A stretch of 58,438 nt of DNA from an uncultured Verrucomicrobiota bacterium (GTDB taxonomy: Bacteria > Verrucomicrobiota > Verrucomicrobiia > Opitutales > Opitutaceae), in assembly GCA_903876795.1 (NCBI GenBank), contig CAIRBK010000092.1, forward strand, positions 1-58,438, given 5' to 3'. Below, piece by piece: positions 15,144 through 35,056 of the stretch (the stretch's first letter is position 1; every line of letters starts with the position of its first letter). Below the pieces are notes generated by a model that did no database searches, was not told where the DNA came from, and saw nothing but the letters and a program-made list of their open reading frames with translations. Both the position numbers and the translations under genes were made by a program.

Positions 15144-16388
15144 TCAACCGCAGACTTCGGGCTGGGGGCGAATCTTGCGAGGACCGTCGGGCGCCGGTGA
15201 CTTCTGGAGCTGGGGACGCGGCCGCCGGGCGGCGGCGGGGTCAAGAAATTCAAGGCGGCCCAGTTTGTCGGCGGCGAGCTCGGTGAACCAGATGTTGCCG
15301 TCGGGCCCCTGGGTGATGCGGTGCATCACCGTGTCGGGCGTAGGCACCTCGTAAAAGGTGATCGGCACATCGGAAATGTCGCCGGTCTGACCTGCGTGCG
15401 GCGCAAGTGTCACGGAAGCGTCGATCCGCACGATGGCGTCGGTGCCGGCGGGATAAGGATTGCTCTGGTTTACGTAGGCCTGGGTCCAGAGATTGCCGGC
15501 GGAGTCGAAGGCAAGCGAAGCGAGAATGGTGTTGGCGTGCAGCAAGGGCACGGGATACTCGACGAGCGAGACAAACTCCCGGGTGACGGGATCAAGGAGA
15601 ATGCGGCCGACCTTGTTGCCGGCCTCCTCGCTGAACCACAACGAGTGTCCGTCGGGGCCGGGGGTGACGCCGATGGGACGGCTGTTGGGCGTGGGTATCG
15701 GATATTCGGTGACGACTCCGTCGGGGGTGACGCGGGCGATCTGGTTGCCCACGAGTTCGGTGCACCACATGTTGCCGTCGGGTCCGGCGGTGATGTAGAT
15801 CGGCACGGAGCCGACGGTGGGCAGCACGAAGTGCGTGACCGTGCCGTCGGCCGCGATGCGGCCCACGGTGCCGGTGGCCTTTCCGGTGAACCAGAGGGTG
15901 ACGCCGTCGGGGGCGATGCCCAGGCCGTGCGGGTTGGTGTTGATGGGAGCGGGCGAACCTGCGGAGTGCAGCGAGACGTCGATGACCTTCAGTATCCTGC
16001 CGGTGGTTTGGTCGATCTGCACAACCTTGCCCGCGAATTCAAGCGTGACCCAGAGGTTTCCGGCGGCGTCAAACTGGATGCCGTGCGGACCGCTGCCGGC
16101 GGGCATGGAGAAGAACGTGGGCCGGCCGTCGAGCGTGACGCGGGCGAGGCCGTCATGGGTCTGTCCGGTAACCCAAAACACCTGGGAACCGGAAGCAGCG
16201 GCGCGGTTGTAGGTGAGTTCATGGGTGGAGCCGCTGGTGCCCTTGGGCCAGTTGAGCGGGAACTCGGCGATCGAGGCGACGGTGGCGACCGGGCCGTTGG
16301 AAGCGACTGGCCGGGGTCCGGCGTGGAGCAGCGCAACGACAGCGGCAGCACCTGTGAATAGAAGCCCTAATGCAAGGAGTGGTTTCAT
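15144..16388 (-). CDS. Vgb-like beta-propeller protein (virginiamycin B lyase family)
   Basis: A 414-residue protein with an N-terminal signal or anchor (MKPLLALGLLFTGAAAVVALL) and repeated propeller blades carrying the motif GPDGNMWCTE / GPDGNIWFTE / APDGVTLWFTG. The pattern matches the streptogramin lyase-like family. Most such proteins are not antibiotic lyases, so a resistance role is not supported; an exported binding or lyase role is more likely. It is the last gene of the leftward cluster and starts 21 bp after the upstream membrane-protein gene. The C-terminal 30 residues are Pro/Arg-rich. Confidence 0.75.
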   Translation of the reverse strand: MKPLLALGLLFTGAAAVVALLHAGPRPVASNGPVATVASIAEFPLNWPKGTSGSTHELTYNRAAASGSQVFWVTGQTHDGLARVTLDGRPTFFSMPAGSGPHGIQFDAAGNLWVTLEFAGKVVQIDQTTGRILKVIDVSLHSAGSPAPINTNPHGLGIAPDGVTLWFTGKATGTVGRIAADGTVTHFVLPTVGSVPIYITAGPDGNMWCTELVGNQIARVTPDGVVTEYPIPTPNSRPIGVTPGPDGHSLWFSEEAGNKVGRILLDPVTREFVSLVEYPVPLLHANTILASLAFDSAGNLWTQAYVNQSNPYPAGTDAIVRIDASVTLAPHAGQTGDISDVPITFYEVPTPDTVMHRITQGPDGNIWFTELAADKLGRLEFLDPAAARRPRPQLQKSPAPDGPRKIRPQPEVCG

Positions 16389-17335: not shown

Positions 17336-18061
17336 TCAGTCCGCGATATACCAGCGGCCTTGGTTGTCGTCGGTGTAGGCGCGACCCTCCACGTTGTAGA
17401 CGACGTCAAAGGAGACGACGGCACCCTTCGGCACCGGGATGCCGCCTTCGGGCGCGGTCCAGGTCTTGCCGGCGGGTGTCGCAGCGGCGCAGACGAGGGA
17501 AGTGACCACGCGCGGGGCCTTGGGAGCGTTGGCCAGGCACCACCGTACGTTGACGGAGTCGACCGCAGGCCGGGTGGAGAACTCGAACTCAAGAGCGTCC
17601 TGGGGGGCGCTTTTTTTCACGGCAGGTTTCACCTTGGCGGTCTTGATGGCGATATCGGCGAGGCCGAAGCGCAGCCAGTGGTTTTTACCGTGATCGGAGT
17701 CCCAGTGCGTCTGGCCGTCATCGTGGGTGCAGGAGAACCAGACCTCGAGCGCGTCGCAGCCGGCAGGGATGTCAAAGGTGGTCGTGAGCATGAATCCCTG
17801 TCCGGTGACGTCGGCGAGATCGGCCAACGGGAGACCGGCGGGAAGCTCGAGCAGGCAATGCCACTCGACGCCGACGGGATGGAAGCGCACATGGGCGCGG
17901 ATGTGGTGGTTCTCGGTGGCGGCGTCGCCCAACGTGACGAGCCGGAGCGGATCGTAGCGGAGGACGCACGGGCCGGGCACGAGGTCGCCCTGGACAAGCT
18001 CGTGGAAATCGGAGGTGAAGGTAATCTGAGGGCGGGCGCCCGCGTTTTGACGGAGTTGCAT
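17336..18061 (-). CDS. DUF6209-like protein
   Basis: A 241-residue soluble protein without signal peptide. The segment FMLTTTFDIPAGCDALEVWF followed by DSDHGKNHWLRF, and the C-terminal FDVVYNVEGRAYTDDNQGRW, resemble the DUF6209 group, a beta-rich family of unknown function; the assignment is from memory of the pattern. An AAGGA at proper spacing precedes the ATG at 18061. It follows the first GH31 gene by 25 bp and is followed by a terminator, so it belongs to the GH31 transcript. Confidence 0.6.
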   Translation of the reverse strand: MQLRQNAGARPQITFTSDFHELVQGDLVPGPCVLRYDPLRLVTLGDAATENHHIRAHVRFHPVGVEWHCLLELPAGLPLADLADVTGQGFMLTTTFDIPAGCDALEVWFSCTHDDGQTHWDSDHGKNHWLRFGLADIAIKTAKVKPAVKKSAPQDALEFEFSTRPAVDSVNVRWCLANAPKAPRVVTSLVCAAATPAGKTWTAPEGGIPVPKGAVVSFDVVYNVEGRAYTDDNQGRWYIAD

Positions 18062-18086
18062 GATGTTCCTTGAGGTGGGGGATTGA

Positions 18087-20957
18087 TTAGTAAGAGGCGC
18101 TCACGAGGGTGTCGGCGCGGTTGTCGTGGATTTTCACGAACACAATGTTGAGGGATTGGTTCCAATACCAAGCGTCCACCGCAGAGGCTTGAAGCGAATC
18201 GGGATCGCCGACGTTGGGCAGAGTGGTGCCGTCACGGGAGACTTGTTTGGCGGAGGTGATACTGCCGAGAATACCGATGTAATTGAACGGTGACGGAGGC
18301 GTGTAGTTGTCCGTCTCGCGGGCGATCCGTATTTGGCGCGTGGTGCCGTTGTTGGTGAGAGTCTGCTGATAAATCCGGGAGAGGCGATACTCGGCGTTAT
18401 TGGCGGCGTTCTGGGTGATGCCGTCGTCCTGGTAGAGCCGGTAGGCCTGCGCATCGGTCCAGCGGTCCGGGCCGGGGTAGCAGTTGATGGTAAGCGGGTT
18501 CTCGGGCAGCTGGCCGACCCATTGTTCGAGTTCCTGGAACGGCATGATGGCGCCTGCCCGAACGTAAATCGGCACGAGATCGAGGCCGGCCGTGTAGGCG
18601 ATGACGCTGCCGCCCTGGACGGCGCCGAGGAGCGGGGCCTCGTTGTTCTGGAAGGCATACCAGTCGCTGCCGGCCGGGAGGTAGAGATCGCGCGTCGGGG
18701 AGATCGGTGGGGTGGCGGTCACGGCCTGGAAGAGAATCGGGGCGACGAGGAAATCACCGCCGACGAAGAACTGGGAGTTGATGTAGTAGTTGTCGTTACC
18801 ATACACGCCCTGGTCCTGCGGCTCGTTGAGGAAGAGCGGGCGGCAGATGGGAAGACCGGTCTGCGTCCACTCATACATGGCGTCGTAGTAAACCTGCATC
18901 ATGGTGTAACGCAGCTCGACGTAGGTGCGGCAGTTGGTGGGGACGGGCTCGCCGTAGGCGAAGGCCTCCTGGAACTGCTTGTTGTAACCGTCGTAGTGGT
19001 TTCGATACCACGGCAGGAAAGAACCGACCTGCATCCACCGGGTGAGCAACTCGTAGTTGGTGATGCCGCCCACGACGGTGCCGCCGACCACGCCGGATTG
19101 CGAGGTGGTGCCGGAGCCGGTGGCGAAACCGCCGATGTCGCAGCCGCTGATGGGCACGCCCGATAGGCCGAGGTTGAGGACTTCGGGGATGTTGATGTTG
19201 AGGAAATCCCAGCTGGAGGCCGAGTCACCCGTCCAGAGGGCGGCGTAGCGCTGCATGCCGGCGTAACCGCCTCGGGCGATGATGAAATTGCGGCGCTGCG
19301 GGGCGATGGCGTTGATGCCGGCCCAGGTGGCGCCGAGCAGGTTGTTGACGTAGCTGTTGTGAAGCTGGGCGTTGGGCAGGTAGTTGACGGCGACAACGGC
19401 GCCGGTGACCGGATCGGTCTCCTCCTGCGCCATCATGAGGTCTTGCGGGAAGGTTTTGAAATACTGCTGCGAGGGCGGAAGGTTGGCGTCAATCGCGGGG
19501 CAGGTCATGTCCTGCCAGATCATGTCGAGGCCGACGTTTTGAATGAGATCGAGGTACTGCTGGCCCCAGGTTTTGCGGGCGATGGTGAGGCCGAAATCGG
19601 GGTAGTTGCCGGGAGCGGCGAGAGGCGTCTGTCCCTGGGAGTTGGGCCGGAGCGGAGGATAGGGATACGGGTTGTTGCCGTAGTTGATGCCGTAGTTGAC
19701 GCCGCCGAGGTAGGGGTTGGGGTCCTCGTAGCTGCCGGGGTAACGCGTGTTGTAGATCAGAGCGTTGGCGGCGATGAGGGCGTCGCGCTGGGCGTAGGGG
19801 GTTTTCGCGCCCTCCTGATCCAGCGGGTTGGTGGTGATGATCGGGGTGATGTTGGTGCTCATCTTGAACCCGATGAGGTGCAGATCGTCGAAGAGTTCCT
19901 TGGTGTGGGGGAACTTCATCTCGCTGTGCGTGAAAGTCCGGTAGTTGTCCTGGAAATCGACGTCGATGTGGAGGCCGTCGCAGGGGATGCGGGCCGCGCG
20001 GTAGGCGTTGGCGGCGGCGGAGAGCTTGTAGCGGTCGAAGTAACCGTAGGCGCCCTGGTGAAAACCGAAGACGTAACGCGGCGGCATGGGCGAGCGACCG
20101 GTGAGCGTGGTGTATTGGCGGAGGATGTCCGGGATGCCCGAGCCGGCGAAGAAGTAGGTGTCGAGCTCGTTGTAGAGGCCTCCGAGGTAATACTTGCCAT
20201 CCATGTCGGAGTAGTCGTTGGCCGAGACGTTGGCGAACGTCTGTCCGCAGTTGTCGAGGAACAAGCCGGTGGCGAACGGCGAACCGGCGAACGCACCCGA
20301 GGGCGCGGGGTCGTTTTCGACGAGGACCGGTATGGAGCAGTAGAGCGGCTCGGACGGATTGAGCGGGCCGGGCTGGCCTTCGGAGGGGCCGTTGTAGGTG
20401 TAGTTGTCGAAGTTAAAGAACGAGTAGGTGAACTGGTTTTTCTGGAGGGCGGCGCCGGCTTTTTCTCCGAGGCCGTAGTAGGTCGCGCCGGCGGGGGCGG
20501 TCTTCATGATCGCGATCACCTGCTGGCCGGGGATGTAGAGAACACCCTGTCCGGGCGCGTCTTGGTGGATGAGCTGACCGCCGCGATAAACTTGTACGTA
20601 GAACGGCGCGAGGGCGACCTGGATGGTGATGGCACCGGTGTTGATTAGCAGGGTCTGGGCGTTGGGTTGGCTGGTGGAGACCTTGAGTCCGACGACGCCG
20701 AGGTCGCGATGCACAACGGCGGTGGACGTCTCGGTCGCGTAAGTGGCACCGGCCACCGGGGTGAAGCGAAGGCGGTACGCGGTGGGCCCGAGCACCTCGA
20801 TGTAGAGGGAGTAGGCGTTGTTCTGGCCGAAGACGAAGGTGAAACGGCGTCCGGTGGAATCGGGCGACCAGGAGGCGATGTTGCCCACGGTGCTCCAGCC
20901 GGAGTTGTTGGGTGTGAATTGGTTCGGGTAGACGTAGGGAAAGGCGGTGCTGCTCAT
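18087..20957 (-). CDS. GH31 enzyme, alpha-1,4-glucan lyase-like (copy 2 of tandem pair)
   Basis: A 956-residue glycoside hydrolase family 31 protein. Ordinary family members carry WxDMNE around the nucleophile. Here the motif is IWQDMTCPAI (Asp at about 483), as in algal and fungal alpha-1,4-glucan lyases, which cleave starch or glycogen by elimination to 1,5-anhydro-D-fructose. Other lyase-like stretches are FHQGAYGYF, DFQDNYRTFTHSEMKF, KMSTNITPII and NFIIARGGYAGMQRYAALWTGD (acid/base candidate Asp at about 578). No signal peptide is visible, so it is probably cytosolic. The ATG at 20957 begins homology; there is no Shine-Dalgarno. A 13-bp hairpin lies 42 nt upstream. Lyase rather than hydrolase activity is an inference. 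Confidence 0.82.
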   Translation of the reverse strand: MSSTAFPYVYPNQFTPNNSGWSTVGNIASWSPDSTGRRFTFVFGQNNAYSLYIEVLGPTAYRLRFTPVAGATYATETSTAVVHRDLGVVGLKVSTSQPNAQTLLINTGAITIQVALAPFYVQVYRGGQLIHQDAPGQGVLYIPGQQVIAIMKTAPAGATYYGLGEKAGAALQKNQFTYSFFNFDNYTYNGPSEGQPGPLNPSEPLYCSIPVLVENDPAPSGAFAGSPFATGLFLDNCGQTFANVSANDYSDMDGKYYLGGLYNELDTYFFAGSGIPDILRQYTTLTGRSPMPPRYVFGFHQGAYGYFDRYKLSAAANAYRAARIPCDGLHIDVDFQDNYRTFTHSEMKFPHTKELFDDLHLIGFKMSTNITPIITTNPLDQEGAKTPYAQRDALIAANALIYNTRYPGSYEDPNPYLGGVNYGINYGNNPYPYPPLRPNSQGQTPLAAPGNYPDFGLTIARKTWGQQYLDLIQNVGLDMIWQDMTCPAIDANLPPSQQYFKTFPQDLMMAQEETDPVTGAVVAVNYLPNAQLHNSYVNNLLGATWAGINAIAPQRRNFIIARGGYAGMQRYAALWTGDSASSWDFLNINIPEVLNLGLSGVPISGCDIGGFATGSGTTSQSGVVGGTVVGGITNYELLTRWMQVGSFLPWYRNHYDGYNKQFQEAFAYGEPVPTNCRTYVELRYTMMQVYYDAMYEWTQTGLPICRPLFLNEPQDQGVYGNDNYYINSQFFVGGDFLVAPILFQAVTATPPISPTRDLYLPAGSDWYAFQNNEAPLLGAVQGGSVIAYTAGLDLVPIYVRAGAIMPFQELEQWVGQLPENPLTINCYPGPDRWTDAQAYRLYQDDGITQNAANNAEYRLSRIYQQTLTNNGTTRQIRIARETDNYTPPSPFNYIGILGSITSAKQVSRDGTTLPNVGDPDSLQASAVDAWYWNQSLNIVFVKIHDNRADTLVSASY

Positions 20958-20999
20958 GATGTGAAACGGGGATGTTTTGGCGAAGAAGGAAAGATGTCG

Positions 21000-21030
21000 G
21001 TGAACCGTGCGCACCAAGCGTACGGTTCAC
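21000..21030 (-). promoter_or_regulatory. Intercistronic hairpin 42 nt before GH31 copy 2
   Basis: GTGAACCGTGCGC (21000-21012) pairs with GCGTACGGTTCAC (21018-21030), a 13-bp stem with one G-U pair and a 5-nt loop. No T-run follows on the transcribed strand, so transcript stabilisation or processing is more likely than termination. Confidence 0.6.
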
Positions 21031-21048
21031 CGCGAAACCGAGAAATGA

Positions 21049-23964
21049 TCAGAACGTGGCGACGACGGTCACATTGGCCGACGTGTCCATGACCTTGACG
21101 AAGGTGGTCTTGATGCTGGCGTTGTAGTAGTAGGCGTTGCCGTCGTAGACGGCCAGGGCGTCGGCCGCCTGTTCGGCTGTCGGGTAGATCAGGTTCGGGA
21201 CCGAGGCCCCCGCGACCGTGAGGGTGGCCGGCTGATTGGTGCCCAGGAAGGCGACATAGTAGAACGTCTCTTTCGGCGTAAACGCCGGATTTTCGTAGGT
21301 GCGGACGATGTTGACGCTCTGGCCTCCGGTGATGCCGGTGTGGCTGATGGTGGTCAGGCGATAGGCGCCGTTGGCCTGCGCGGCGGTGGTGAGTCCGTCG
21401 TCTTGGTAAAGCTGATACGAACTGTCCGGTCCCGGATAGATGTTGAAGGTAAGCGGACACTGCGCGAGCTGTCCGACCCATTGCTCGAGCACGCGGGTGG
21501 GGATGATGGCCCCGGCGCGCACATAAACGGGCACGTAATAGAGCGGATTGCCCGCGAAGGTGGCGGTATAGCTGTAGGACTGGCCGCCGGGGGTGATCGG
21601 ACCAAGCGGAGCTTGGTTGTTTTGGAAGCCATACCACTGGGAGCCGGCGGGGAGATAGACATCGCGCATACCGTTGCCTTCGGCCTGGGGGGCGAGAATC
21701 GGAGCGACGAGGAGATCGTGGCCGACATAGAACTGGCTGTCGGCGATCCCGGGAGACTGGTAGCAGAGCGGATCCTGCGGATCGTTGAGGAAGAGGGCGC
21801 GGCAGATGGGCATGCCCGTCTGGCTGGCTTGATAGGCGCAGTCGTAAAAAAGCTGGAGGAGGGTGTAACGGATCTCGACCCAAGTGCGGCAGATGGCCGG
21901 GACGGGCTCGCCGTAGGCATAGGGCTCCTGAAACTGCTTGGTGTAACCGTCGTAGTGGTTGCGGAACCAGGGAAGCAACGCCCCCATCGTCATCCAACGG
22001 GTTAACAGCTCGTAGTCGGTGACGCCGCCAAAGACGGTTCCGTCGGTCACGTAGGAAGCGGTGGTGGTTCCCGAACCATTGGCAAAGCCTCCAATGTCGC
22101 AGCCGGAGATGGGCTGGCCGGAAAGGCCGTTGTTGAGGACTTCGGGGATATTGGCCTGGAGGAACTGCCAACTGGAAGCGGAGTCGCCGGTCCACAGACC
22201 GGCGTAGCGCTGCATGCCGGCGTAGCCGCCGCGGGCGATGATAAAGGTGCGCAGGCCGGCGCGTAGGGTCTGGAGGCCGCCGGTGGTGGCCTTCAGGAGA
22301 TTCATGACGAATGAATTCTTGAGCCGGGCGTGGGCTTTATAGGTGCCGCTGACGGTGTCGTAGAGCATCAGCCCCAGCGGGAAGGTCTTCTCGTTGGCGG
22401 GCGTGTTGTTGTTGTAAGAGCCGATGGTGCCTCCCGGCTGGGCGATCTGGATGGTGGCACCATTGCCAGGCTCAAGGGCCGGATCGGTCATGTCCTGCCA
22501 GATCATCTCGATGCCGAGGTCGAGGATGTCTTTGTATTGCTGGCCCCACCACGTCTGGACCGCAGGGTCGCCCAGATTGGGGTAGTAGCCGTAGGAGCCG
22601 AGGGTGGTCACACCGTTGACGGGGACGAGCGGCGGATAAGGATAGGGATTGCTGCCAGCGTTGTCGCCATAGCCTTCGTTGCCAAGGAAGAGGTAGGGGT
22701 TGGGCGGACCGTCGTTCTGGGTGTAGTAGATGAAGGCGTTTTGTGCGAAGCCGCTGTCGCGCGCTGGATAAGGGGTGTTGGTGTTGCCGTATTCGTCGTA
22801 GGGATTGGCCGTGATCAACGCGGTGATGTTGGTGCTGCACTTGAAACCAATGGTCTTGAGGTTTTGGAACATCTCCTTCGCGTTCGGAAACTTCATCTCG
22901 CTGTGGGTGAAAGTCCGGTAGTTGTTCTGGAAATCGACGTCGATGTGCAGGCCGTCGCAGGGGATGCGCGCGGCGCGGAAGGAGTTGGCGGCCTGGGCGA
23001 GCTTGTAGCGGTCGTAGTAGCCGTAGCAGCCTTGATGGAACCCGAGCGCGTATTTGGGCGGGAGCATTGGACGGCCGGTGAGCTGGGTAAACTGGTCGAC
23101 CACGTCGGGAGCGGCGTTTCCGGCCATGAAGTAATAGTCCATGAAGCCGTAGAGGGCCCCGACATAATACTTCCCGCTCATGTCGGAATAATCGTTGGTG
23201 CCTATGTTGTAGTAGGACTGGGCAACGTTGTCGAAAAATAGGCCGTAGGCGTAAGGAGCACCTGAGTTCGCGCCGACAGGCTGGGGATTGATCTCGATCA
23301 GAAGCGGGACCGAGTTGTAGAGCGGTTCGGACGGATTGCCCGGGCCGGCAATCTCGCCGGCGGGAAGCGGTCCCGAGCCATCGGCGAACGAATTCGAATA
23401 CATGAAGTTGTCGAAGTTGAAGTTCGTCATCGTGAACTGGTTCTTCGCCAACGAGGTGCCCGCCTTCTCGCCGAAGCCGACGTAGAGGGCGTTCTGGGGA
23501 TACTGCTTGAGATTGGCCACGACCTCCTGGCCGGGGATGTAGATGAGGCCGCTGCCGGGAGCGTCTGAGTGGATGAGTTGATTGGTCCCCGAACGGTAAA
23601 CCGTGACAAAAAAACCGTTGAGATTGACCACCACGCGGATCACGCCCGTGTCGACGACGAGCTGGGTGGCGCTTTGAGTGACGGAGCTGAAATTCACCGC
23701 GCCCAGATTCTGGGTGACCACGGCGTAGGAGCCGTCAGGCGTGGAGGCCAAGGCGCCCGGTACGGGGCTGAAGCGCACGCGGAAACAGCTCGACGAAAGA
23801 AAGGAAAGCACGATGGGCAAGCCGCCATCGAGGGTGGTCGTGGTAAACACAGTTCCCTGCTGGGTCCAGGGATTGGTCAGGCCAACCGCCGTCCAGGGAT
23901 TGTTGGTCTGCCCGAATGTGTTCGGGGTGAATGCGTTTACGGTGACGAAAGAATAGGTGCTCAT
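21049..23964 (-). CDS. GH31 enzyme, alpha-1,4-glucan lyase-like (copy 1 of tandem pair)
   Basis: A 971-residue paralogue of the next gene, collinear with it from the N-terminal domain to the C-terminus. It has the lyase-type nucleophile motif MIWQDMTDPAL (Asp at about 491), the WTGDSASSW acid/base segment (Asp at about 594), FHQGCYGYYDRYK, DFQNNYRTFTHSEMKF and KCSTNITALI; the cysteine in KCSTNIT matches known glucan lyases. There is no signal peptide. Homology begins at the ATG at 23964; the upstream in-frame extension is not conserved. A strong hairpin lies 42 nt before the start. The substrate is probably glycogen or maltodextrin. Confidence 0.83.
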   Translation of the reverse strand: MSTYSFVTVNAFTPNTFGQTNNPWTAVGLTNPWTQQGTVFTTTTLDGGLPIVLSFLSSSCFRVRFSPVPGALASTPDGSYAVVTQNLGAVNFSSVTQSATQLVVDTGVIRVVVNLNGFFVTVYRSGTNQLIHSDAPGSGLIYIPGQEVVANLKQYPQNALYVGFGEKAGTSLAKNQFTMTNFNFDNFMYSNSFADGSGPLPAGEIAGPGNPSEPLYNSVPLLIEINPQPVGANSGAPYAYGLFFDNVAQSYYNIGTNDYSDMSGKYYVGALYGFMDYYFMAGNAAPDVVDQFTQLTGRPMLPPKYALGFHQGCYGYYDRYKLAQAANSFRAARIPCDGLHIDVDFQNNYRTFTHSEMKFPNAKEMFQNLKTIGFKCSTNITALITANPYDEYGNTNTPYPARDSGFAQNAFIYYTQNDGPPNPYLFLGNEGYGDNAGSNPYPYPPLVPVNGVTTLGSYGYYPNLGDPAVQTWWGQQYKDILDLGIEMIWQDMTDPALEPGNGATIQIAQPGGTIGSYNNNTPANEKTFPLGLMLYDTVSGTYKAHARLKNSFVMNLLKATTGGLQTLRAGLRTFIIARGGYAGMQRYAGLWTGDSASSWQFLQANIPEVLNNGLSGQPISGCDIGGFANGSGTTTASYVTDGTVFGGVTDYELLTRWMTMGALLPWFRNHYDGYTKQFQEPYAYGEPVPAICRTWVEIRYTLLQLFYDCAYQASQTGMPICRALFLNDPQDPLCYQSPGIADSQFYVGHDLLVAPILAPQAEGNGMRDVYLPAGSQWYGFQNNQAPLGPITPGGQSYSYTATFAGNPLYYVPVYVRAGAIIPTRVLEQWVGQLAQCPLTFNIYPGPDSSYQLYQDDGLTTAAQANGAYRLTTISHTGITGGQSVNIVRTYENPAFTPKETFYYVAFLGTNQPATLTVAGASVPNLIYPTAEQAADALAVYDGNAYYYNASIKTTFVKVMDTSANVTVVATF

Positions 23965-24006
23965 GTGGGAGGCGAAAAACGAGGGCTTGGTGCGAAGGGC
24001 AGGTTC

Positions 24007-24036
24007 GCGCACGCCGAGGCTCTCCGCGGCGTGCGC
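24007..24036 (-). promoter_or_regulatory. Intercistronic hairpin 42 nt before GH31 copy 1
   Basis: GCGCACGCCG (24007-24016) and CGGCGTGCGC (24027-24036) form a perfect 10-bp stem with a 10-nt loop, between the haem-protein gene and GH31 copy 1. There is no T-run. Its distance to the start codon equals that of the hairpin before GH31 copy 2. Confidence 0.6.
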
Positions 24037-24075
24037 ATTGTTGGGATGCGATGACTGGAGCAAGAATGCCGCGGC

Positions 24076-25863
24076 TTATTTGGCCGGGCAGATCTTCTGG
24101 TTGTTGGCGATCAGCTGCGTGGAGATGTCCACGGTGTCGTTGCCGGTGTAGGGCGCTGACTGCGCGCGCAGCTGGAGGAGCCACGAGTAGTCGGCGTCGC
24201 CCATGAGGCCGCGGACGGCGTTCTGGCCGTAGATCGGCACGCGGTATTTAACACCATCAACCGTTTGGGTGACATAACGGCCATAGGGGTCCTTTTTGAA
24301 GGCCACGGCGGCTCCGGCGGAGAAATGGCACCCGGCGCAGCTTTCCGTCGCGAAGATGATGTTGGGGTCGGCGAGCAGGCCGGCCGGCAGGCGGTAGTCG
24401 TCGGCGACGGGACCGGCGGGCTGGTTGCCGTTCTGGAAGAACGTCTCCATGGTGGTGTTCACCAGGAAGACGGGGACGACCTTGCCGGGAACCTTGTAAA
24501 TGATGCTATCGTGGGAGGACGGCAGCAGTTGGCCGTTGGGCTGGTTGGCGACGCCGTTGGTGAAGCCGGGGAAGGACGGCGCGGCGGGCCACTGAGTGCC
24601 GATCAACTCGTAGTACTGGAACACCGAGCCGAGGCCCTTTAGGGCGGCGCGAACCTGGGTGTTGAGCGCGGCGGTGGCCTTGGGGATGGGCAGCACCATG
24701 GTGGCCTGCGTGGGGTTGGTCGTGAGGGACTCATCCCAGGAGGAATAAACTTCGGGACCATCGTTTTTTCCGGTGGCGGGATTGTATTGGGCGACGGGTG
24801 CGGCGTTCTTCGGCGCGAGGGTATTGACGGGGATGGTCGGGTTCGCGGTGTTGAAGAACGTAGGCTTGATGGAGCGGCCCTTGCCGTCCTTTTCGAGATC
24901 GTCGGTATTGGTGTTGTCCACCTGCTCGAAGGTCGCCCAGATCCAAGTGGGCGAAGACTCGGTCTTCACCGCGATGTGCATACCGACCAGGCCGAACTCG
25001 GCGGTGTAGGGCTGGCCGGTGAGCGGGACGACGCGGGCCTTGCGCACAAGGAACCGCGCGGGGTCTTCCTGGCCGCTCATCTGCTTCCAGGACATTTTGA
25101 TCTCCATCGCACCGTGCTTGGTGGTGCCCTTGTTCGCGGGGAAGTTGATCTGTTTTTTGGCGGTGTAGGCGATCTGACCCTCGATATTGTAGAGCTTGTT
25201 TTCGACGAGGTAGTCGAACTCGACTTCGTTCATCGCGGCCTGATAGCGCACCCATTTGCCCTGCTGGTCGATCATGGGGCCGGTAAAGGCCTGCAAGCTG
25301 CCGCTGGGTCCCCCGAGAACGGGGAGGACATAGTCGCCGTCGCCCGCTTTCTTTTTGTCGGAGGGGGTGCCGATGGACATGCCGGACATCCAGAAGGTTT
25401 TCTCCTGACTGGCGGCCACAGCGTTTTTCCAGTCGAGCGGCGGAGCTCCGTCCTTGCGGTAAACCTGGCCCGCATCGACGTAGTATTCCCAAACGCGAGG
25501 AGTCTGCGAATCCGCAAGGGTGAGCTGTTTGTTCGGTTGACCGTCGGACTTGGCCGGCCAATTGAGCGCGATAAACGCCTGCCAGGAAAAAATATCGAAC
25601 AGGCGCTGAGCAGGCGGAATGTTATCTTCGGGAATCGTGTATGGAGGATTGGCTTTCTTGGGCGTGTCGCTGAGTGCGCGCAAAGCCGCCAGATTTACAT
25701 CGTAGGGCAGTTCCGAACTGAAGGGAATTGGCAGAAGCGTACTGACCTCTTTCGAGGCAACTTCATCTGCCGAATAAACCAACGTGGTTGCATAAAAACC
25801 GACAAGGAGTGCCGGAATGGCGCGCTCAAGCATAAGATAAGGAAGTCTAGACGTGTGTTTCAT
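24076..25863 (-). CDS. Exported cytochrome c-like protein, unknown function
   Basis: A 595-residue protein with an N-terminal signal region (LMLERAIPALLVGFYATTLVYSAD) and a single haem-c attachment motif SCAGCHFSAG about 80 residues before the C-terminus. The long N-terminal part contains segments such as DIFSWQAFIALNWPA and GAMEIKMSWKQM that recur in exported bacterial proteins, but I cannot name an enzyme. It probably acts in the periplasm as a redox protein. The ATG at 25863 (MKHTSRLPYL) is preferred over the one at 25887. It is the first gene upstream of the GH31 pair, with an AT-rich promoter region before it. Confidence 0.75.
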   Translation of the reverse strand: MKHTSRLPYLMLERAIPALLVGFYATTLVYSADEVASKEVSTLLPIPFSSELPYDVNLAALRALSDTPKKANPPYTIPEDNIPPAQRLFDIFSWQAFIALNWPAKSDGQPNKQLTLADSQTPRVWEYYVDAGQVYRKDGAPPLDWKNAVAASQEKTFWMSGMSIGTPSDKKKAGDGDYVLPVLGGPSGSLQAFTGPMIDQQGKWVRYQAAMNEVEFDYLVENKLYNIEGQIAYTAKKQINFPANKGTTKHGAMEIKMSWKQMSGQEDPARFLVRKARVVPLTGQPYTAEFGLVGMHIAVKTESSPTWIWATFEQVDNTNTDDLEKDGKGRSIKPTFFNTANPTIPVNTLAPKNAAPVAQYNPATGKNDGPEVYSSWDESLTTNPTQATMVLPIPKATAALNTQVRAALKGLGSVFQYYELIGTQWPAAPSFPGFTNGVANQPNGQLLPSSHDSIIYKVPGKVVPVFLVNTTMETFFQNGNQPAGPVADDYRLPAGLLADPNIIFATESCAGCHFSAGAAVAFKKDPYGRYVTQTVDGVKYRVPIYGQNAVRGLMGDADYSWLLQLRAQSAPYTGNDTVDISTQLIANNQKICPAK

Positions 25864-26119
25864 AGCGTAATTAAACTGAACTATCATCGTTAAAAACTGA
25901 TGACTAATATGTTATATTCAGCATAAAAAATGCCATGCAGCTACATTGTAAATTTTATATCCACAAATAATTACATTACGTCCTTATCGTAATCGAAATT
26001 CAATGAATCGGAAATCCGCAATCAGGCGGCAAATAATTACGCAAGATGCTGATTCGGAGATGATCGGGGATTCTCGGTGGACAGCTCATTTCTCATTCCG
26101 TTGGAAACCGACAAGCGGA
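25864..26119. other. AT-rich upstream region of the cytochrome c-like gene
   Basis: About 250 bp that is much more AT-rich than its surroundings, with several T/A runs. It presumably holds the leftward promoter for the cytochrome c-like and GH31 genes. No gene is visible; composition suggests older horizontally acquired or decayed DNA. Confidence 0.45.
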
Positions 26120-26383: not shown

Positions 26384-26414
26384 TGGTGCAACCGTAGGGA
26401 GTCGAACCCCAAAC
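26384..26414 (-). repeat. Attachment site (distal, tRNA 3'-end copy)
   Basis: Exact 31-bp copy of 35060-35090. It reads, on the minus strand, as the T arm, acceptor strand and CCA of tRNA-Arg. The integrase gene starts 42 bp away. Confidence 0.88.
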
Positions 26415-26456
26415 TTGTTTTAGCCCTACGCAAGTTTCCTGATTACCATAGAATAA

Positions 26457-27668
26457 ATGACGAAAAACATTGTAACATCTTTTGATATGTTGCCAGTGTG
26501 GTTGCCAGCCAATCCTACCATGCCTTCCCTTCGTCGCAAAGTCGGCTCTCCCTTTTTCTTCGCCTGCTTCACCCTGCCGGACGGGCGCCGCACCCAGCGC
26601 AGCACGAAGCTGGCAGACCGCGGCAAGGCCATGAAAATGGCGGTGCAGTGGGAACAGGCAGCGTCGGACCGGATAACCGAAGCGCAGGCACGTCGGGTGA
26701 TGTCCGACATCCATGAGCAGATTCATGGCACACGCTTGGATTGCCCATCGCTCACGGACTTCGTCACTCAATGGCTTGGACGAAAGAAAGGAGAGACCGC
26801 GGCCGTTACCCTCAACACCTACCGCCTGGCGGTGGAGGAGTTCAGGGATGCATTGGGTGATCGTGCCGCCGCTCCGATCAATTACATCACCCCGGCGCAG
26901 ATTACCGCATGGCGCGACGCTGCGGCAGCCAAGGCCAGTCCCAGAACGGCCAACAACAAACTCAAAATCGTTCGGGTGTTGCTCCAATCGGCATGGCGCG
27001 ACGGATTGATCTCTGAGAATCCCGCCGCCAAGGTGCAGGTGCTAAAATCAGAAGGTAGCAACCGCCGCCCCTTCACGTTGCCAGAGCTTCGGACATTGCT
27101 CGGCATGGCGAATAACGAATGGCGCGGCATGATCCTAGCCGGCCTCTACACCGGCCAGCGCCTCAAGGACATTGCCTCGCTGACTTGGGCGAACGTTGAC
27201 ATGGAGCGGGCAGAGATCCGCCTCGCGACAAGCAAGACCGGTCGCCGACAGATCATCCCCATCGCCACACCGCTGCGCGCCTACATCGAGGGCCTGCCAG
27301 CCGGCGACAATCCATCCGCACCCATCTTCCCCTCCGCCTATCGCATCGCGACGGTAAATCTACACATGGGAATGCTCAGCCGCCAGTTTGGCGAACTCAT
27401 GGCGACGGCAGGCCTGGCGAAGCCCGTGCCCGAAACGCACGCCGGCACCGGCAAAGGACGCGGAGCACCACGAGAGCGGAACGCCCTCTCCTTTCACTGC
27501 CTCCGCCATACCGCGACGTCATTGCTCAAAAATGCAGGTGTGTCCGAAGCTGTTGCGATGGACCTCATCGGCCACGATAGCACGGAAATGTCGAAGCACT
27601 ACACGCACACCAACGAAACGGAGAAGCGCGCGGCGATCGCAAAGCTGCCCGACATAACATCGACCTGA
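26457..27668 (+). CDS. int: Tyrosine-type site-specific integrase of the element
   Basis: A phage-type integrase that recombines the tRNA attachment site. All catalytic residues are visible: Arg235 (TGQRLKDI), Lys260 (TSKTGRRQ), His347 and Arg350 (HCLRHT), His373 (IGHDS) and the nucleophile Tyr382 (KHYTHTN). The N-terminal part holds an arm-binding segment, and residues 100-190 form the core-binding SAM-like domain. The ATG at 26457 is given, but homology starts nearer MPSLRRKVG (ATG at 26520); neither has a clear ribosome-binding site. It is transcribed inward from the distal attachment site. Confidence 0.92.
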   Translation: MTKNIVTSFDMLPVWLPANPTMPSLRRKVGSPFFFACFTLPDGRRTQRSTKLADRGKAMKMAVQWEQAASDRITEAQARRVMSDIHEQIHGTRLDCPSLTDFVTQWLGRKKGETAAVTLNTYRLAVEEFRDALGDRAAAPINYITPAQITAWRDAAAAKASPRTANNKLKIVRVLLQSAWRDGLISENPAAKVQVLKSEGSNRRPFTLPELRTLLGMANNEWRGMILAGLYTGQRLKDIASLTWANVDMERAEIRLATSKTGRRQIIPIATPLRAYIEGLPAGDNPSAPIFPSAYRIATVNLHMGMLSRQFGELMATAGLAKPVPETHAGTGKGRGAPRERNALSFHCLRHTATSLLKNAGVSEAVAMDLIGHDSTEMSKHYTHTNETEKRAAIAKLPDITST

Positions 27669-27731
27669 GTCACTGGCACGGCACGCCAGTAATTGACGTC
27701 ACCGCTCCCGAGTCCGAAGGTCTGCCCCAAG

Positions 27732-27908
27732 ATGAGCGAGCGTCCCAAGATCAAATTACCGCCGGAGCTGGTGAAGCATCAGCAGCAGGCGCTCAAGTCG
27801 CAGGCCAAGCTGGACGCCGACTACAAGACGCGCTACGCGCAGCCGGGGTCGATGACCAAGGCGTTCAACGAGCAGTTCGACCGGATCAGGGCAGCCGCTC
27901 AACGCTGA
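27732..27908 (+). CDS. Small hypothetical protein of the element
   Basis: A 58-residue basic, helical protein (MSERPKIKLPPELVKHQQQALKS at its start) without membrane segment. The family is unknown. The ATG at 27732 is chosen over the in-frame start at 27693 because it begins the compositionally coherent part and follows a GAAGG. It lies 63 bp after int and could be a small regulator. Confidence 0.5.
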   Translation: MSERPKIKLPPELVKHQQQALKSQAKLDADYKTRYAQPGSMTKAFNEQFDRIRAAAQR

Positions 27909-28235
27909 GTCGCTCCGAGCAGGAGCCAGAGCCTCACCGCGTGGGCCCGCGCGCTTCTCAGACGGCGTTACAAAAATATATTCTGATAAGACGCGGCAGC
28001 GTCAGAGGCAGGGAGTCGGGTAGTGGAAATTCACCCTTGCGACACCGGCAAGCGGTGCCACTCGGTGGGCGTGGCCGTAAGAAGCCAAATTAAACGATAG
28101 TCACATATCGCCCCCGCCGGGCGATGGAAGGTGTCATGACTGGCACCTAATTCTTACCCATCGTTTGGCGCGGGGTTTAACCATAGGCAGAAGAAGCCGT
28201 AAGGAGCTGAACCTGCACCGAAAGGAAAACCAGTC
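27909..28235. other. Intergenic stretch in the element
   Basis: About 330 bp without a supported gene. It contains short GC-rich inverted sequences (for example GGTGTC and GGCACC around 28131-28147) and probably the promoter of the next operon. Nothing else stands out. Confidence 0.45.
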
Positions 28236-28649
28236 ATGGCAGCAAAACCAGCGCGGACCAGCACGGCCCGCATCAATCAGAAGCCGCTCACCCCCGACGC
28301 CCTTTTGCATCAGGTGCGCATGATGATGAACGCCGGCGAGACGACGTCGCGCGCCGACATCAGCCGCATCGAGAAACTCGCCGAGGAGGTCGAACGCCAA
28401 GGCAAGCTCGCGCAAGCGCATATCATCGCAGCTATGGGGAACCACCCCTTGCCCGTTCGCTTTTTTTCACCGTGGGCCAGCTACGCCCGGATCAACCAAG
28501 CCGAGCGCGACGGGACGCTCACGACCCTGGTGCGCCGCAATGCAAAAGTGCTCATCCGCGCCAGCGACTTCTTCGATTGGTTCGAGACGATCCCCGCCGA
28601 CGTGAAGCGGAAAAAGGCGGGCGGTATCGCACGGGAGGGCGGAAAATGA
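28236..28649 (+). CDS. Putative excisionase-like DNA-binding protein
   Basis: A 137-residue protein. Its C-terminal part, WASYARINQAERDGTLTT followed by NAKVLIRASDFFDWFET, fits the winged-helix pattern of excisionase or MerR-like small domains: a recognition helix, a Gly turn, a beta wing, and a terminal helix. The N-terminal 70 residues form a helical coiled-coil-like region. GAAAGGA lies nine bases before the ATG. It overlaps the next gene by four bases (ATGA). A role in excision or transcription control of the element is inferred. Confidence 0.55.
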   Translation: MAAKPARTSTARINQKPLTPDALLHQVRMMMNAGETTSRADISRIEKLAEEVERQGKLAQAHIIAAMGNHPLPVRFFSPWASYARINQAERDGTLTTLVRRNAKVLIRASDFFDWFETIPADVKRKKAGGIAREGGK

Positions 28650-29023
28650 GCATCAGCTTTTACGAAGACGCGCGACGGAATGGGGAGAAGTGCCACAAGC
28701 TGCCCCTTGCTGCTTGGGTCGCCCGACAGTTCGAGGAGGAGTTCGGCAACCTGCGATCCGCGGTGCCCACTCTCGTCGCAGATGTTCGGATGGCCGTGGA
28801 GCTCGGCACGCTGACGCCCGACTTGGGGACGATACGCTGGGTGTTTGACGGCGGGACCTCGGCTCTGGAAGCCAATCGTCATCATCGTTACATCGCTCTC
28901 CCGCTCGACTTGGACCGCCAGTTTGAGCAACTGGCACGCGCTCACGGTCTGACACCGAACGCCGCGCTGTGCATGCTGATGACATGGCGTGCGCTCCACG
29001 GCTGGGTGATACCGGGCCGGTGA
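28646..29023 (+). CDS. Hypothetical protein of the element
   Basis: A 125-residue soluble protein starting MSISFYEDARRNGEKCHKLP with an internal segment FVARQFEEEFG-like (AAWVARQFEEEFGNLRSAV). No family is recognised. The ATG at 28646 overlaps the previous stop as ATGA and has GGAGG close upstream, so the start is secure and translational coupling is likely. It may act with the excisionase-like partner. Confidence 0.6.
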   Translation: MSISFYEDARRNGEKCHKLPLAAWVARQFEEEFGNLRSAVPTLVADVRMAVELGTLTPDLGTIRWVFDGGTSALEANRHHRYIALPLDLDRQFEQLARAHGLTPNAALCMLMTWRALHGWVIPGR

Positions 29024-29473
29024 TTCCGCCAAGGAGGGAGCACCCCTTGTAACGCTCACCCGTAGCCGCTCAATGTGCCGCGCAAGAACTGACACCCCTC
29101 CCCTCTCGCTTCCCCCTGAAATTTCCGCAGGCCACCCCCGCCCTGATTTCCAAAAAAAATCGGGCTGGGGTTTTTGAAAACTTGCCCTGCCTAAAACTCG
29201 GGTTCTCGCTTGCGTGATGCTCCAACCGTCCCGACTTGAGCCACCACCTTGGAACATCCGGCCTCGGTTGCTGCTCAGGGTTGATACTTGGCTCAACGGG
29301 ATGCCGCGTAGGGGTATCCCGACATCGCGCACGATGACGGCAAGGCACGGCTCCGGCCCTACACCGCATGGCCACGCTGCACCCGCTGGATTTCCTACAA
29401 GCAAACGAGGTCCGAGAGCGGAGAGCGCGTCGTTGGGTCATGGCGTTTCCGATCCGACTGGCTGGCGGAAAAG
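29024..29473 (+). other. Intergenic stretch with open but start-less frame
   Basis: About 450 bp. A hairpin (GCCC-GATT with AATCGGGC, 29140-29165, then TTTTT at 29171-29175) may end the preceding operon. From 29312 the frame of the next gene is open and reads as plausible protein (PYTAWPRCTRWISYKQ, then SWRFRSDWLAEKL), but it has no ATG, GTG or TTG before 29474 and is closed by TAG at 29309. Confidence 0.45.
29140..29175 (+). terminator. Terminator candidate after the 28.2-29.0 kb operon
   Basis: An 8-bp stem with one bulged T (GCCC(T)GATT with AATCGGGC) and an A-rich loop; TTTTT follows five bases later. The spacing of the T-run makes it a weak candidate. Confidence 0.35.
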
Positions 29474-29791
29474 TTGATCATCGGTGCGGCGGCGTCCTAC
29501 GTTGAGCATTATCTGGATGAGACGCTGATTTGCTGGCTACGCGACCGGGACAACGCCGACGAACGTGTCTCCGCGCTTCCTGACAATTGGAACATAGTCG
29601 CCCTTTACTTGCTGCTCTACGTCGAAAACGGGGACTGCCGGCCCTTCTGCATGAGTTGCGGCCGGAACATCGCCCACACCGATCTCAGCCTTGAAAATAC
29701 CGGTGGCCCCAAGGGCGACATTGGCAAGGTTGTCCGCTGCGACCGCGGGCACGTGCTGCTCGATCAGCGCTGCTTTATCCACATCGACTGA
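29474..29791 (+). CDS. Cysteine-rich small protein, possibly 5'-truncated gene
   Basis: A 105-residue frame from TTG 29474. A helical N-terminus (SYVEHYLDETLICWLRDRDN) is followed by a zinc-ribbon-like pattern: CRPFCMSCGRN and, 27 residues later, CDRGH then C. The start is uncertain: the same frame is open and protein-like back to 29312 but lacks a standard start there. Either it uses a rare start, or its true 5' end was lost to a nonsense or frameshift change near 29300. No family is recognised. Confidence 0.45.
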   Translation: MIIGAAASYVEHYLDETLICWLRDRDNADERVSALPDNWNIVALYLLLYVENGDCRPFCMSCGRNIAHTDLSLENTGGPKGDIGKVVRCDRGHVLLDQRCFIHID

Positions 29792-29808
29792 CGCAGCCGT
29801 CTCTATTC

Positions 29809-30018
29809 ATGAAAGCCCCCATCCTCTGCTTCCTTGCCGCGCTTGTCGTCGGCTTCGCGGCGTTCTCGATTGCTGGTGAGCGCTACCAGTTCGCCGCCGG
29901 CCCCTCGTCGATTTCCATGCGAGACCGATGGACGGGAAAACTTTACTACATGAGCGCCGGATTCACCGTCACTCCTGGACTAAGTTCTGCGCCATCTTGG
30001 CGGGAGGTTTCCCAATGA
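29809..30018 (+). CDS. Small exported or membrane protein (paralogue A)
   Basis: A 69-residue protein with an N-terminal hydrophobic helix (MKAPILCFLAALVVGFAAFS) followed by GERYQFAAG and RDRWTGKLYYMS. The pattern of a membrane helix, then an RY dipeptide, then an Asp-x-x-Thr-Gly turn, is shared with the next gene. The role is unknown; a membrane-anchored small domain is likely. It overlaps the next gene by four bases (ATGA). Confidence 0.5.
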   Translation: MKAPILCFLAALVVGFAAFSIAGERYQFAAGPSSISMRDRWTGKLYYMSAGFTVTPGLSSAPSWREVSQ

Positions 30019-30176
30019 AAGCGCGTTGTGTGATCGCCGCCCTGCTGGGACTGGTTGCCGCCTTCGTGCTGCACTCGGCCATCGGAGGGCGCTACTATAC
30101 CGATAAACACGGCGTTACGCTCGATGGCATGACCGGCACCGCCGAGTGGCGCGGCGCGCGCGTGACCCTGCCCTAG
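30015..30176 (+). CDS. Small exported or membrane protein (paralogue B)
   Basis: A 53-residue protein: hydrophobic N-terminus (MKARCVIAALLGLVAAFVLH), then GGRYYTDKHG, then LDGMTGTAEWRG. It has the same layout as the preceding gene and is probably its shortened paralogue. The ATG overlaps the previous stop and has GGGAGG seven bases upstream, which supports translation. Confidence 0.5.
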   Translation: MKARCVIAALLGLVAAFVLHSAIGGRYYTDKHGVTLDGMTGTAEWRGARVTLP

Positions 30177-30186
30177 AGGCGGTCAG

Positions 30187-30243
30187 ATGGCCCGAAAGCT
30201 CAGGAAATTCTTCGAATACGCGCGCAACAAGAAGGTGAACTGA
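30187..30243 (+). CDS. Possible 18-residue basic peptide
   Basis: ATG 30187 to TGA 30243 encodes MARKLRKFFEYARNKKVN, a basic, potentially amphipathic helix, ten bases after the previous stop and just before a strong terminator. An AGAGGCGG lies upstream. Too short to judge from composition. Confidence 0.25.
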   Translation: MARKLRKFFEYARNKKVN

Positions 30244-30267
30244 GGCAGTTGCCCACCGAAGAACTCG

Positions 30268-30295
30268 GCCCCGCTTTCACCGGCGGGGCTTTTTT
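30268..30295 (+). terminator. Central intrinsic terminator of the element
   Basis: GCCCCGC (30268-30274) pairs with GCGGGGC (30283-30289) and is followed by TTTTTT. It lies where the rightward and leftward arms of the element meet. Confidence 0.85.
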
Positions 30296-30321
30296 GCGCA
30301 CTTGCTGCCGGGTGCACCCAC

Positions 30322-30969
30322 TCACACGGCCCACCAGTTATAAACGAGCACCCCGCAGGTTTGCCCGTTCAGGCTATGCGTCACGGCCTGATGAAGGGTC
30401 ACGGCCGACCCGGACACGGCAACTTGCCCAATTAGAAAATGTCCGGTCGTGGTGGTGTCGGCGGGAACCTCCTCACCGCTTGCAATGGCGGCATCGACCG
30501 GCAAGCCGTCGGAATCGACGGTTACCTCGGCCCACACCAGTAGGCCGTCGGAAGGCGTGAACGATGCTGGCGCGCCGCCGCCGTCAACTTCCTCGGGCAC
30601 CATACCCCAGACGCTGCCGTAACGGACGCGGACGACTGGATCACCATCAACGGTGGCGGTGTAGAGCTGCAAAGGGTGGTTTGCAGGTGCCACATCGTCG
30701 TCACCCAAGGCGACATCTACGGGGTTGCGGTCCCAAAGCTCGATGGTGACTTTGTTGTCGCCGAAGACCAAGCGGCCGGCGTTGTCGGGCTTCAACTCCA
30801 GCTCAAAGCCGAACTCGTCTTTGAAGGCCATGGCGAAGCCGGCGAGGGCTGCACCCGCCTGCCGCTCACGACGTCGGGTCAAGTCTTGGCGGGGGCTCAG
30901 CCCCGTATCGGCCAGGCGAAGATTCTGATCGTCTTGTTCCAGCCATTTCACTGTCGGTTCGTAGCTCAT
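30322..30969 (-). CDS. Hypothetical protein of the element
   Basis: A 215-residue acidic soluble protein. The N-terminal third is helical (ERQAGAALAGFAMAFKDEFGFELEL) and the rest is Gly/Val/Thr-rich and likely beta, ending in GQTCGVLVYNWWAV. No family is recognised; a phage-like structural or accessory protein is possible but unproven. It overlaps the ERCC4 nuclease gene by four bases (ATGA) and is the last gene of the leftward operon. Confidence 0.55.
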   Translation of the reverse strand: MSYEPTVKWLEQDDQNLRLADTGLSPRQDLTRRRERQAGAALAGFAMAFKDEFGFELELKPDNAGRLVFGDNKVTIELWDRNPVDVALGDDDVAPANHPLQLYTATVDGDPVVRVRYGSVWGMVPEEVDGGGAPASFTPSDGLLVWAEVTVDSDGLPVDAAIASGEEVPADTTTTGHFLIGQVAVSGSAVTLHQAVTHSLNGQTCGVLVYNWWAV

Positions 30970-31589: not shown

Positions 31590-31595
31590 CGCGGG

Positions 31596-32444: not shown

Positions 32445-32447
32445 GGG

Positions 32448-33506: not shown

Positions 33507-33681
33507 TGGTGGCGTGGGCTGCACCGCGCTCGATCTCGACGAGCTGGGCGTGCAGGCGGGCTAAAGTTTGACGGCGGGTAGTGATTGAGACCGTGAGGCG
33601 TGCGGCCTTGGCCTCGGCGCCGGCGATGTCGGCGGCAAGGGCGGCGATCCGGCGGCGGAGTTCAGTGGGCGCAATGCTCAT
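33493..33681 (-). CDS. Small coiled-coil protein of the element
   Basis: A 62-residue, highly helical protein (ELRRRIAALAADIAGAEAKAAR) without membrane segment. No family is recognised. It overlaps the gene before it as ATGA and the gene after it by 14 bp, so it belongs to the coupled leftward operon. Confidence 0.5.
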   Translation of the reverse strand: MSIAPTELRRRIAALAADIAGAEAKAARLTVSITTRRQTLARLHAQLVEIERGAAHATNEKP

Positions 33682-34188: not shown

Positions 34189-34318
34189 GTCGGGAAATTA
34201 CACGTGGGGCGATCTGTGGGATCGGTTGCATTCGAGAGCATTCGTTCGCCTCCACGGCTTGAACCCACCCTCGTCTTGCGCATCCGGCCTCATCAGGCTT
34301 CCGGGGGAAGTGGGGGAA

Positions 34319-35015: not shown

Positions 35016-35056
35016 AACGAAAAACCCGCTACCTCCTGAGAGATAACGGGTTTTAA
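35016..35056 (-). terminator. Element-borne terminator downstream of tRNA-Arg
   Basis: On the minus strand AAAACCCGTTA pairs with TAGCGGGTTTT (11 bp, one G-U) and is followed by TTCGTTTT. It is brought by the element and replaces the original tRNA terminator now stranded at 26341-26378. Confidence 0.75.

Follow-up and report, generated by a model that had tools for sequence, protein, structure and literature searches.

A recurring bacterial gene module that combines putative alpha-glucan lyases with a haem protein and a DUF6209 protein

Alpha-1,4-glucan lyases act as exo-enzymes, from the non-reducing end of the glucan. A solved red-algal example is the enzyme of Gracilariopsis lemaneiformis (EC 4.2.2.13, PDB 2x2h), which is built from glycoside hydrolase family 31 (GH31) domains and has a nucleophile Asp and an acid Asp, the latter of which we take to be D665. 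GH31 hydrolases such as YicI, YihQ, PsGal31A, 5djw and maltase-glucoamylase have the same fold and catalytic Asp pair as the proteins described here. In the accessible part of a 2025 review, D553 is given as the nucleophile of the algal lyase, Asn459 is said to assist Asp553 in proton abstraction, with Ile at this position in glycosidases, and red algae and fungi are named as the carriers of glucan lyases (PMC12441222). The same part of that review describes the use of anhydrofructose by rhizobia, through an anhydrofructose reductase and then a P450-like hydroxylation for which the enzyme is still unidentified (PMC12441222). Here, we analyzed a contig of 58,438 nucleotides (‘the window’, at its full length) from an uncultured Verrucomicrobiota bacterium of the Opitutaceae (assembly GCA_903876795.1, contig CAIRBK010000092.1), in which two neighboring genes encode GH31 proteins, WA and WB, between genes for a haem protein (haem603) and a DUF6209-like protein. 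On balance, we favor reading the genes at 17336-25887 jointly as a bacterial alpha-glucan lyase module, made up of lyases, a glucan binder and a haem redox partner.

The genes and the residues discussed below are as follows, the equivalents of N459 being placed by alignment to the algal lyase:

24076..25887, minus strand: haem603, an apparently exported c-type haem protein and first gene of the module; Cys517 of its single CxxCH at codon 24337-24339, and Gly259 and Lys264 of a G-x4-K motif at codons 25111-25113 and 25096-25098.
21049..23964, minus strand: WB, alpha-glucan-lyase-like GH31 protein of the Asp type (WQDMT-D), 971 aa from the ATG at 23964; N459 equivalent at codon 22828-22830, nucleophile Asp at 22492-22494, switch-position Asp (Asp494, counted from the ATG) at 22483-22485, acid Asp at 22183-22185.
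18087..20957, minus strand: WA, alpha-glucan-lyase-like GH31 protein of the Cys type (WQDMT-C), 956 aa; N459 equivalent (Asn369, counted from the ATG) at codon 19851-19853, nucleophile Asp at 19509-19511, switch-position Cys (Cys486) at 19500-19502, acid Asp at 19224-19226.
17336..18061, minus strand: DUF6209-like protein, with whose gene the module ends; its predicted fold is alpha-glucan-binding-like (CBM21/CBM34-type).

The genes thus follow each other on the minus strand in the order haem603, WB, WA, DUF6209-like, and none of the four has an internal stop. An initial annotation made from the letters of this DNA had noted two tandem GH31 proteins beside a DUF6209-like protein and a haem protein, and each of these held: WA and WB match the GH31 models of Pfam, the DUF6209-like protein matches PF19714 at 34.6 bits (cut-off 27.5), and haem603 contains a CxxCH. 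That annotation named both neighbors, and the recurring module that they form went unmentioned there.

In our view, the result that most deserves follow-up is the recurrence of the three-gene module. A species-genome collection scanned with two peptide patterns, one of them [ED]MIWQDM, yielded 40 related loci in seven phyla (Pseudomonadota, Myxococcota, Bacteroidota, Acidobacteriota, Cyanobacteriota, Verrucomicrobiota and Planctomycetota); such a scan misses members without the patterns, and conservation inside the patterns is biased. The view that lyases are known mainly from red algae and fungi, with few bacterial cases, was therefore an understatement in the initial annotation. Hidden Markov models of the haem, lyase and DUF6209 families were run on all open reading frames of the 40 loci and, since the loci had been retrieved by lyase peptides only, the neighbors are free of selection. 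Of the 35 loci in which 1.5 kb or more is available upstream of the lyase gene, 25 have the haem gene as the immediate upstream neighbor, and the DUF6209 gene is the immediate downstream neighbor in 21/36 loci with sufficient sequence; these denominators include L037 and L042 (in the latter, 5.9 kb of upstream sequence contains no haem gene) and would otherwise be 34 and 35. Among the remaining loci, the haem gene is found about 2.1 kb upstream of the lyase in L027 and directly downstream, not upstream, in L036 (Okeania), while L019, with less than 1.5 kb upstream, has a cut-off copy. The lyase-like gene is part of a recurring module in very different bacteria.

At the level of whole genomes, a haem protein scoring above 590 bits was present in 21 of 25 lyase genomes and a DUF6209 protein scoring above 270 bits in 15. 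When a sample of 288 Verrucomicrobiota genomes was searched for these two families, and not for the lyase, matches at either level occurred only in the source genome. A search of the source genome and 55 relatives found a close lyase, besides the source, only in G006, a genome of the same genus. Brevifollis gellanilyticus has all three module genes, and Aquimarina sp. RZ0 has the lyase and the haem gene. No bacterial operon of lyase, haem and DUF6209 genes was found in the open-access literature, and a bacterial lyase subfamily may be in print beyond it.

Both WA and WB have the three Pfam GH31 domains (N-terminal, TIM-barrel catalytic and C-terminal) above cut-off, with matches to the barrel model far above it (E 1.7e-73 and 2.3e-75, respectively). 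The lyase-like motifs first read from the letters were recovered, namely WQDMT followed by C in WA or D in WB, K[MC]STNIT, FHQGxYGY, [ND]NYRTFTH and RGGYAGMQRYAxLWTGD. Residues were counted over 40 family rows, made up of 38 loci plus WA and WB. Both the nucleophile and the acid site are Asp in 40/40 rows. At the position of N459, Asn is found in WA, WB and 38/40 rows overall, and in 0/11 GH31 references that have a residue in this column (7 S, 2 I, 1 W, 1 Y). In family rows L015 and L029, the Asn is replaced by Asp and Val, respectively; a change of activity is possible there, as is an error of alignment or assembly. The Glu that follows the nucleophile in hydrolases is missing in all 40 rows: this switch position (Val556 in the algal lyase) is C in 28, D in 11 and T in 1, as compared to E in 11 of the 12 references and Asp in the twelfth, L051. 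The family and 2x2h are alike in the Asn at 459, a Gln before the nucleophile and a Gly at 650; they differ in that 2x2h is eukaryotic and has Val at 556, where WA has Cys and WB has Asp. The four aligned GH31 hydrolases (YicI, YihQ, PsGal31A and 5djw) differ by the Glu after the nucleophile, and the three of them with a letter at 459 have no Asn there. Reportedly, a structure paper of 2013 found that a Glu-to-Val change in a Sulfolobus glucosidase gave lyase activity. The Cys of WA fits such a loss of the carboxylate and the Asp of WB does not fully do so, which makes WB the weaker case for a lyase. Ten further rows besides WB are of the Asp type; all retain the lyase Asn, and the haem gene adjoins 8/10 of them.

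The kinship of the family was analyzed in trees with 12 GH31 references, of which four are solved or characterized (YicI, YihQ, PsGal31A and 5djw) and eight are uncharacterized proteins from related genomes; 2x2h is the one characterized lyase on the lyase side. In a tree of 53 rows, the 40 family rows and 2x2h fall on one side of a branch with a Shimodaira-Hasegawa-like approximate likelihood ratio (SH-aLRT) support of 100, and the 12 references fall outside it (L037 and L042 are omitted from this tree, and L043 was left out as a likely duplicate of L024). Removal of six long or partial rows gave a 47-row tree with the same branch, again at SH-aLRT 100. The approximately unbiased (AU) test rejects grouping of the algal lyase with PsGal31A and 5djw (p 8e-6). 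Because the algal lyase is a long branch, a tree-free count of private residues was added. Among 225 columns conserved to at least 90% in the 40 family rows, 17 residues are common to the family and the algal lyase and found in 0/12 references, Asn459 being one of them; the best single reference shares 4 private residues with the family, and the following ones 3 and 2. Consistent with this, a profile of 38 members, taken from an alignment of WA, WB and 36/40 loci (L029, L037, L038 and L042 not included), matched the algal lyase at 421.7 bits in one stretch, almost end to end, and WB alone aligned to 2x2h without a break (residues 206-957 of its 1004-aa frame, E 4.8e-63, second-ranked). These results support the view that the WA/WB family groups with the solved red-algal lyase rather than with the GH31 references. 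The lyase signatures claimed in the initial annotation are thereby borne out by the two trees, the retained N459 equivalent, the lost Glu and the private residues, and the GH31 tree it had asked for does not place WA or WB inside hydrolase clades. From these residues and trees, we judge that WA is probably a lyase, while for WB the balance tips only slightly toward lyase.

The two proteins are about 54% identical to each other; the AU test rejects WA and WB as sisters (p 1e-45) and, with that, a recent tandem duplication of the lyase gene. WA is closest to L025 of Brevifollis gellanilyticus, at 88% identity over the tree columns, and WB has no close relative, at 60% identity at best. In the 53-row tree, WB belongs to none of the starred sets that comprise at most half of the rows, and its constraint into the WA clade (L014, L016, L024, L025, L026, L041 and WA) was narrowly not rejected (p 0.055), so that an origin of WB by transfer from outside the phylum is possible and unproven. 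Of 25 lyase genomes other than the source, 23 gave one match apiece at E 1e-100 or lower; the Okeania genome of L036 (G077) has one full copy plus a partial 435-aa frame (L107), and G078 has two fragments, each on a contig of its own. None of the 25 contains two full lyase copies and none of the 40 loci a second lyase-family match, which makes the source window unusual. WA and WB are the only strong GH31 matches of the source genome (3.57 Mb, 98% complete), in which a third is barely above the Pfam cut-off at 25.6 bits.

All 22 aligned members of the DUF6209 family match DUF6209, and CBM_21 is also matched by 5/22 at E 0.1 or lower, with 2.8e-6 as the best value; the window member matches it at E 0.096, under the cut-off. 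A PDB profile search with the family was weak, with a best value of 0.053 to PPP1R3C. Sequence thus backs a carbohydrate-binding reading in part. The structure model of the window protein has a predicted local distance difference test score (pLDDT) of 87.6, and in VIA-align comparisons all of the top 13 rows, with Z from 9.0 to 11.3, were alpha-glucan-active enzymes or glycogen-targeting CBM21 domains, the first unrelated row having Z 7.8. Residues 131-241 of the model matched the starch-binding domain of TVA II (Z 11.3, 2.1 Å, 99 residues), and the model matched the CBM21 of PTG (Z 10.2, 3.3 Å, 104 residues). Foldseek placed mainly fibronectin- or antibody-type domains at the top, at root-mean-square deviations of 7 to 15 Å, and ranked the CBM21 of PTG seventh. 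The DUF6209 protein is therefore predicted, from its model, to fold like alpha-glucan-binding domains, in particular the CBM21 of glycogen-targeting PP1 subunits and the starch-binding N-domains of the neopullulanase type, from which it differs in being free-standing and encoded beside the lyase. No paper on DUF6209 was found in the open-access literature.

The haem protein of the window has no Pfam or NCBIfam match, and its relatives have only chance-level Pfam matches. Among the blastp matches listed, CxxCH is present in 27/27 proteins (L043 duplicating L024), and G259 and K264 are invariant in 25/25 aligned members (alignment A3, to which 24 of the 28 haem-bearing loci contributed, all but L007, L018, L019 and L041). 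Many relatives, judged by eye, begin with a hydrophobic N-terminus resembling an export signal or lipobox, and haem603 is apparently exported. Its structure model is fair (pLDDT 70.9), and the ten best VIA rows were all P460 or c'-beta cytochromes (124-144 aligned of 135-157 residues), at Z 4.5 to 5.2, values within the chance range. Foldseek gave nothing usable with this model (best E 0.27), and a PDB profile search gave no match. In the accessible part of the report on McP460, Gly73 and the cross-linking Lys78 show the same G-x4-K spacing (PMC6427953). A profile-profile comparison of haem603 with P460 places G-x4-K in register; once the CxxCH region was removed, 23/200 shuffles scored as well. 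PF16694 was not among the matches of the 25 A3 members (to E 0.1), and in A5 it was matched by 1/23 at E 0.39, under the cut-off. Since the profile comparison is not significant, we say that haem603 resembles P460 and do not claim membership. The modelled fold weakly resembles cytochrome P460/c'-beta, with a C-terminal CxxCH and the spacing of McP460 in common; these cytochromes differ in their length of about 150 aa, as compared to some 500-600 for haem603, which has no Pfam P460 match above cut-off. A wider set of uncharacterized CxxCH proteins from Verrucomicrobiota, mostly of the source family (L070-L079), are distant kin of haem603, at no more than 280 bits against 706 for the protein of the window itself, and most of them share its G-x4-K and its W[AT]TFEH-type motifs.

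In the mechanism that we propose, WA, and probably WB, would cleave alpha-1,4-glucan by elimination. The nucleophile Asp would form a glucosyl-enzyme and, held by the Asn of STNIT, would then take a proton from the bound sugar, so that the product released would be the enol of 1,5-anhydrofructose and not glucose. The DUF6209 protein, as its modelled fold suggests, may bind glycogen or starch and join the enzyme to the polymer as an anchor. The source genome has two strong matches of the glycogen-synthase type and one of the phosphorylase type, and thus glycogen is probably both synthesized and broken down by phosphorolysis in this cell; the lyase would be an additional glycogen outlet, yielding 1,5-anhydrofructose. 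For the haem protein, our guess is that, once exported, it carries out a later redox step on anhydrofructose or its product, or passes on electrons; how the product would cross the membrane is likewise a guess. By analogy, it is a conceivable candidate for a step comparable to the rhizobial hydroxylation: going by the accessible part of the review cited above, the two routes would be alike in requiring a haem-dependent step on an anhydro sugar, and differ in that the rhizobial enzyme is P450-like and haem603 is of the c-type. The initial annotation had suggested an undescribed anhydrofructose pathway from glycogen; such a pathway is plausible and goes beyond our observations, given that haem603 looks exported and the lyase does not, and that no downstream anhydrofructose enzyme was identified, a reductase not having been sought by sequence. 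A bolder version, in which bacterial glucan use starts by elimination and an exported P460-like haem enzyme, perhaps with a Lys264-haem cross-link, oxidizes or hydroxylates the anhydro sugar, is one that we regard as a long shot.

A number of observations weigh against the reading of these genes as a lyase module. In the trees, eight of the 12 references are presumed to be hydrolases, the long branch of the algal lyase may have inflated its placement, and its position outside or inside the bacterial family has support of only 10 and 0; in the count of private residues, references that are related to each other lower each other's totals. Searched with the profile, the two-copy maltase-glucoamylase scored 424.9 bits, slightly over the algal lyase, and the single-copy PsGal31A scored 405.5 bits, in two stretches, while in single-query PDB searches maltase-glucoamylase came top for both WA and WB and the lyase came fourth for WA. 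Sequence scores alone do not separate lyases and hydrolases well. The switch position is never Val in the family, and the Asp of WB is a carboxylate. The haem gene is not directly upstream in 10/35 loci, nor the DUF6209 gene directly downstream in 15/36, and 18 of the 21 haem-positive genomes had supplied rows to the model, leaving G068, G078 and G080 (661-672 bits) as independent cases. Finally, haem603 looks exported and the lyase and the DUF6209 protein do not, a mismatch of compartments between haem protein and lyase in the proposed pathway. The absence of signal peptides on WA and WB, as claimed in the initial annotation, is supported by a crude hydropathy scan alone, no signal-peptide predictor having been used. 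Most readable N-termini in the family begin a few residues ahead of a conserved FVxVNxF[TQ]P motif, which the pattern of the scan missed in several rows.

If WA and WB were ordinary GH31 alpha-glucosidases or transglucosidases, glucose would be released or transferred. This would agree with the GH31 fold and the catalytic Asp pair kept in 40/40 rows, with a hydrolase as the best single-query PDB match of both proteins, and with NCBIfam, where 38/38 aligned members match hydrolase models only, WA and WB far under the cut-off. We nevertheless consider it improbable, as the Glu is missing from every row, the lyase Asn is present in 38/40, and the tree and the private residues favor a lyase. Somewhat more credible, though still unlikely, is a divided pair, with WA a lyase and WB a hydrolase, transferase or bifunctional enzyme on the same glucan. 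WB has Asp, and WA Cys, at the position where 11/12 references have Glu and L051 has Asp, and the two proteins are old paralogues, not sisters. The ten other Asp-type rows argue in the opposite direction: all have the lyase Asn and 8/10 adjoin a haem gene and, as no second lyase-family match was seen in the 40 loci, the Asp type alone must serve the module there.

The substrate of the lyase might also be neither glycogen nor starch but a different alpha-glucoside, such as a foreign polysaccharide or one that the cell exports, with the enzyme working alongside the haem protein outside the cytoplasm and an export route that we did not recognize. The hydrophobic or lipobox-like N-termini seen by eye in many haem relatives would suit this explanation, as would the scattered distribution of the module among phyla and its rarity in the one sampled, the Verrucomicrobiota; the lack of an apparent lyase signal peptide in the crude scan and the similarity of the DUF6209 model to starch- and glycogen-binding modules make it doubtful. 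Least likely, in our estimate, is a haem protein with no link to the sugar, either as a bystander or as a P460-like protein with a general role in handling nitric oxide or hydroxylamine. Distant haem603 relatives are indeed encoded at genomic places where its close family is absent. Even so, haem proteins above 590 bits are found in 21/25 lyase genomes (18 of them the sources of model rows) against 1/288 Verrucomicrobiota, that one being the source itself, and the haem-lyase gene order recurs in 25/35 loci.

Elsewhere in the window, an integrative element occupies 26384-35090, with an integrase gene at 26457-27668 (plus strand) inside it and a 31-bp perfect repeat of the 3' end of tRNA-Arg at 26384-26414 and 35060-35090. 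It ends about 500 bases from the haem gene. The module as cargo of this element is ruled out within the window, as it lies outside the tRNA-Arg repeats that bound the element. Beside the tRNA-Arg gene, 35225-38152 (minus strand) encodes a 975-aa FG-GAP repeat protein. On the other side of the module, 15144-16388 (minus strand) encodes a beta-propeller protein that matches the Pfam virginiamycin B lyase family (E 3.5e-58) and is far under the NCBIfam Vgb cut-offs; it is likely a generic Vgb-like propeller, and a resistance role is not shown.

If the bolder version given above held, bacteria of several phyla would have a redox form of glycogenolysis that starts without hydrolysis or phosphorolysis. 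The named carrier strains, Brevifollis gellanilyticus and Aquimarina sp. RZ0, would make the anhydrofructose route genetically testable. Two families without a function, DUF6209 and haem603, would gain functions to look for, and the module would bear on the origin of environmental 1,5-anhydrofructose and anhydroglucitol.

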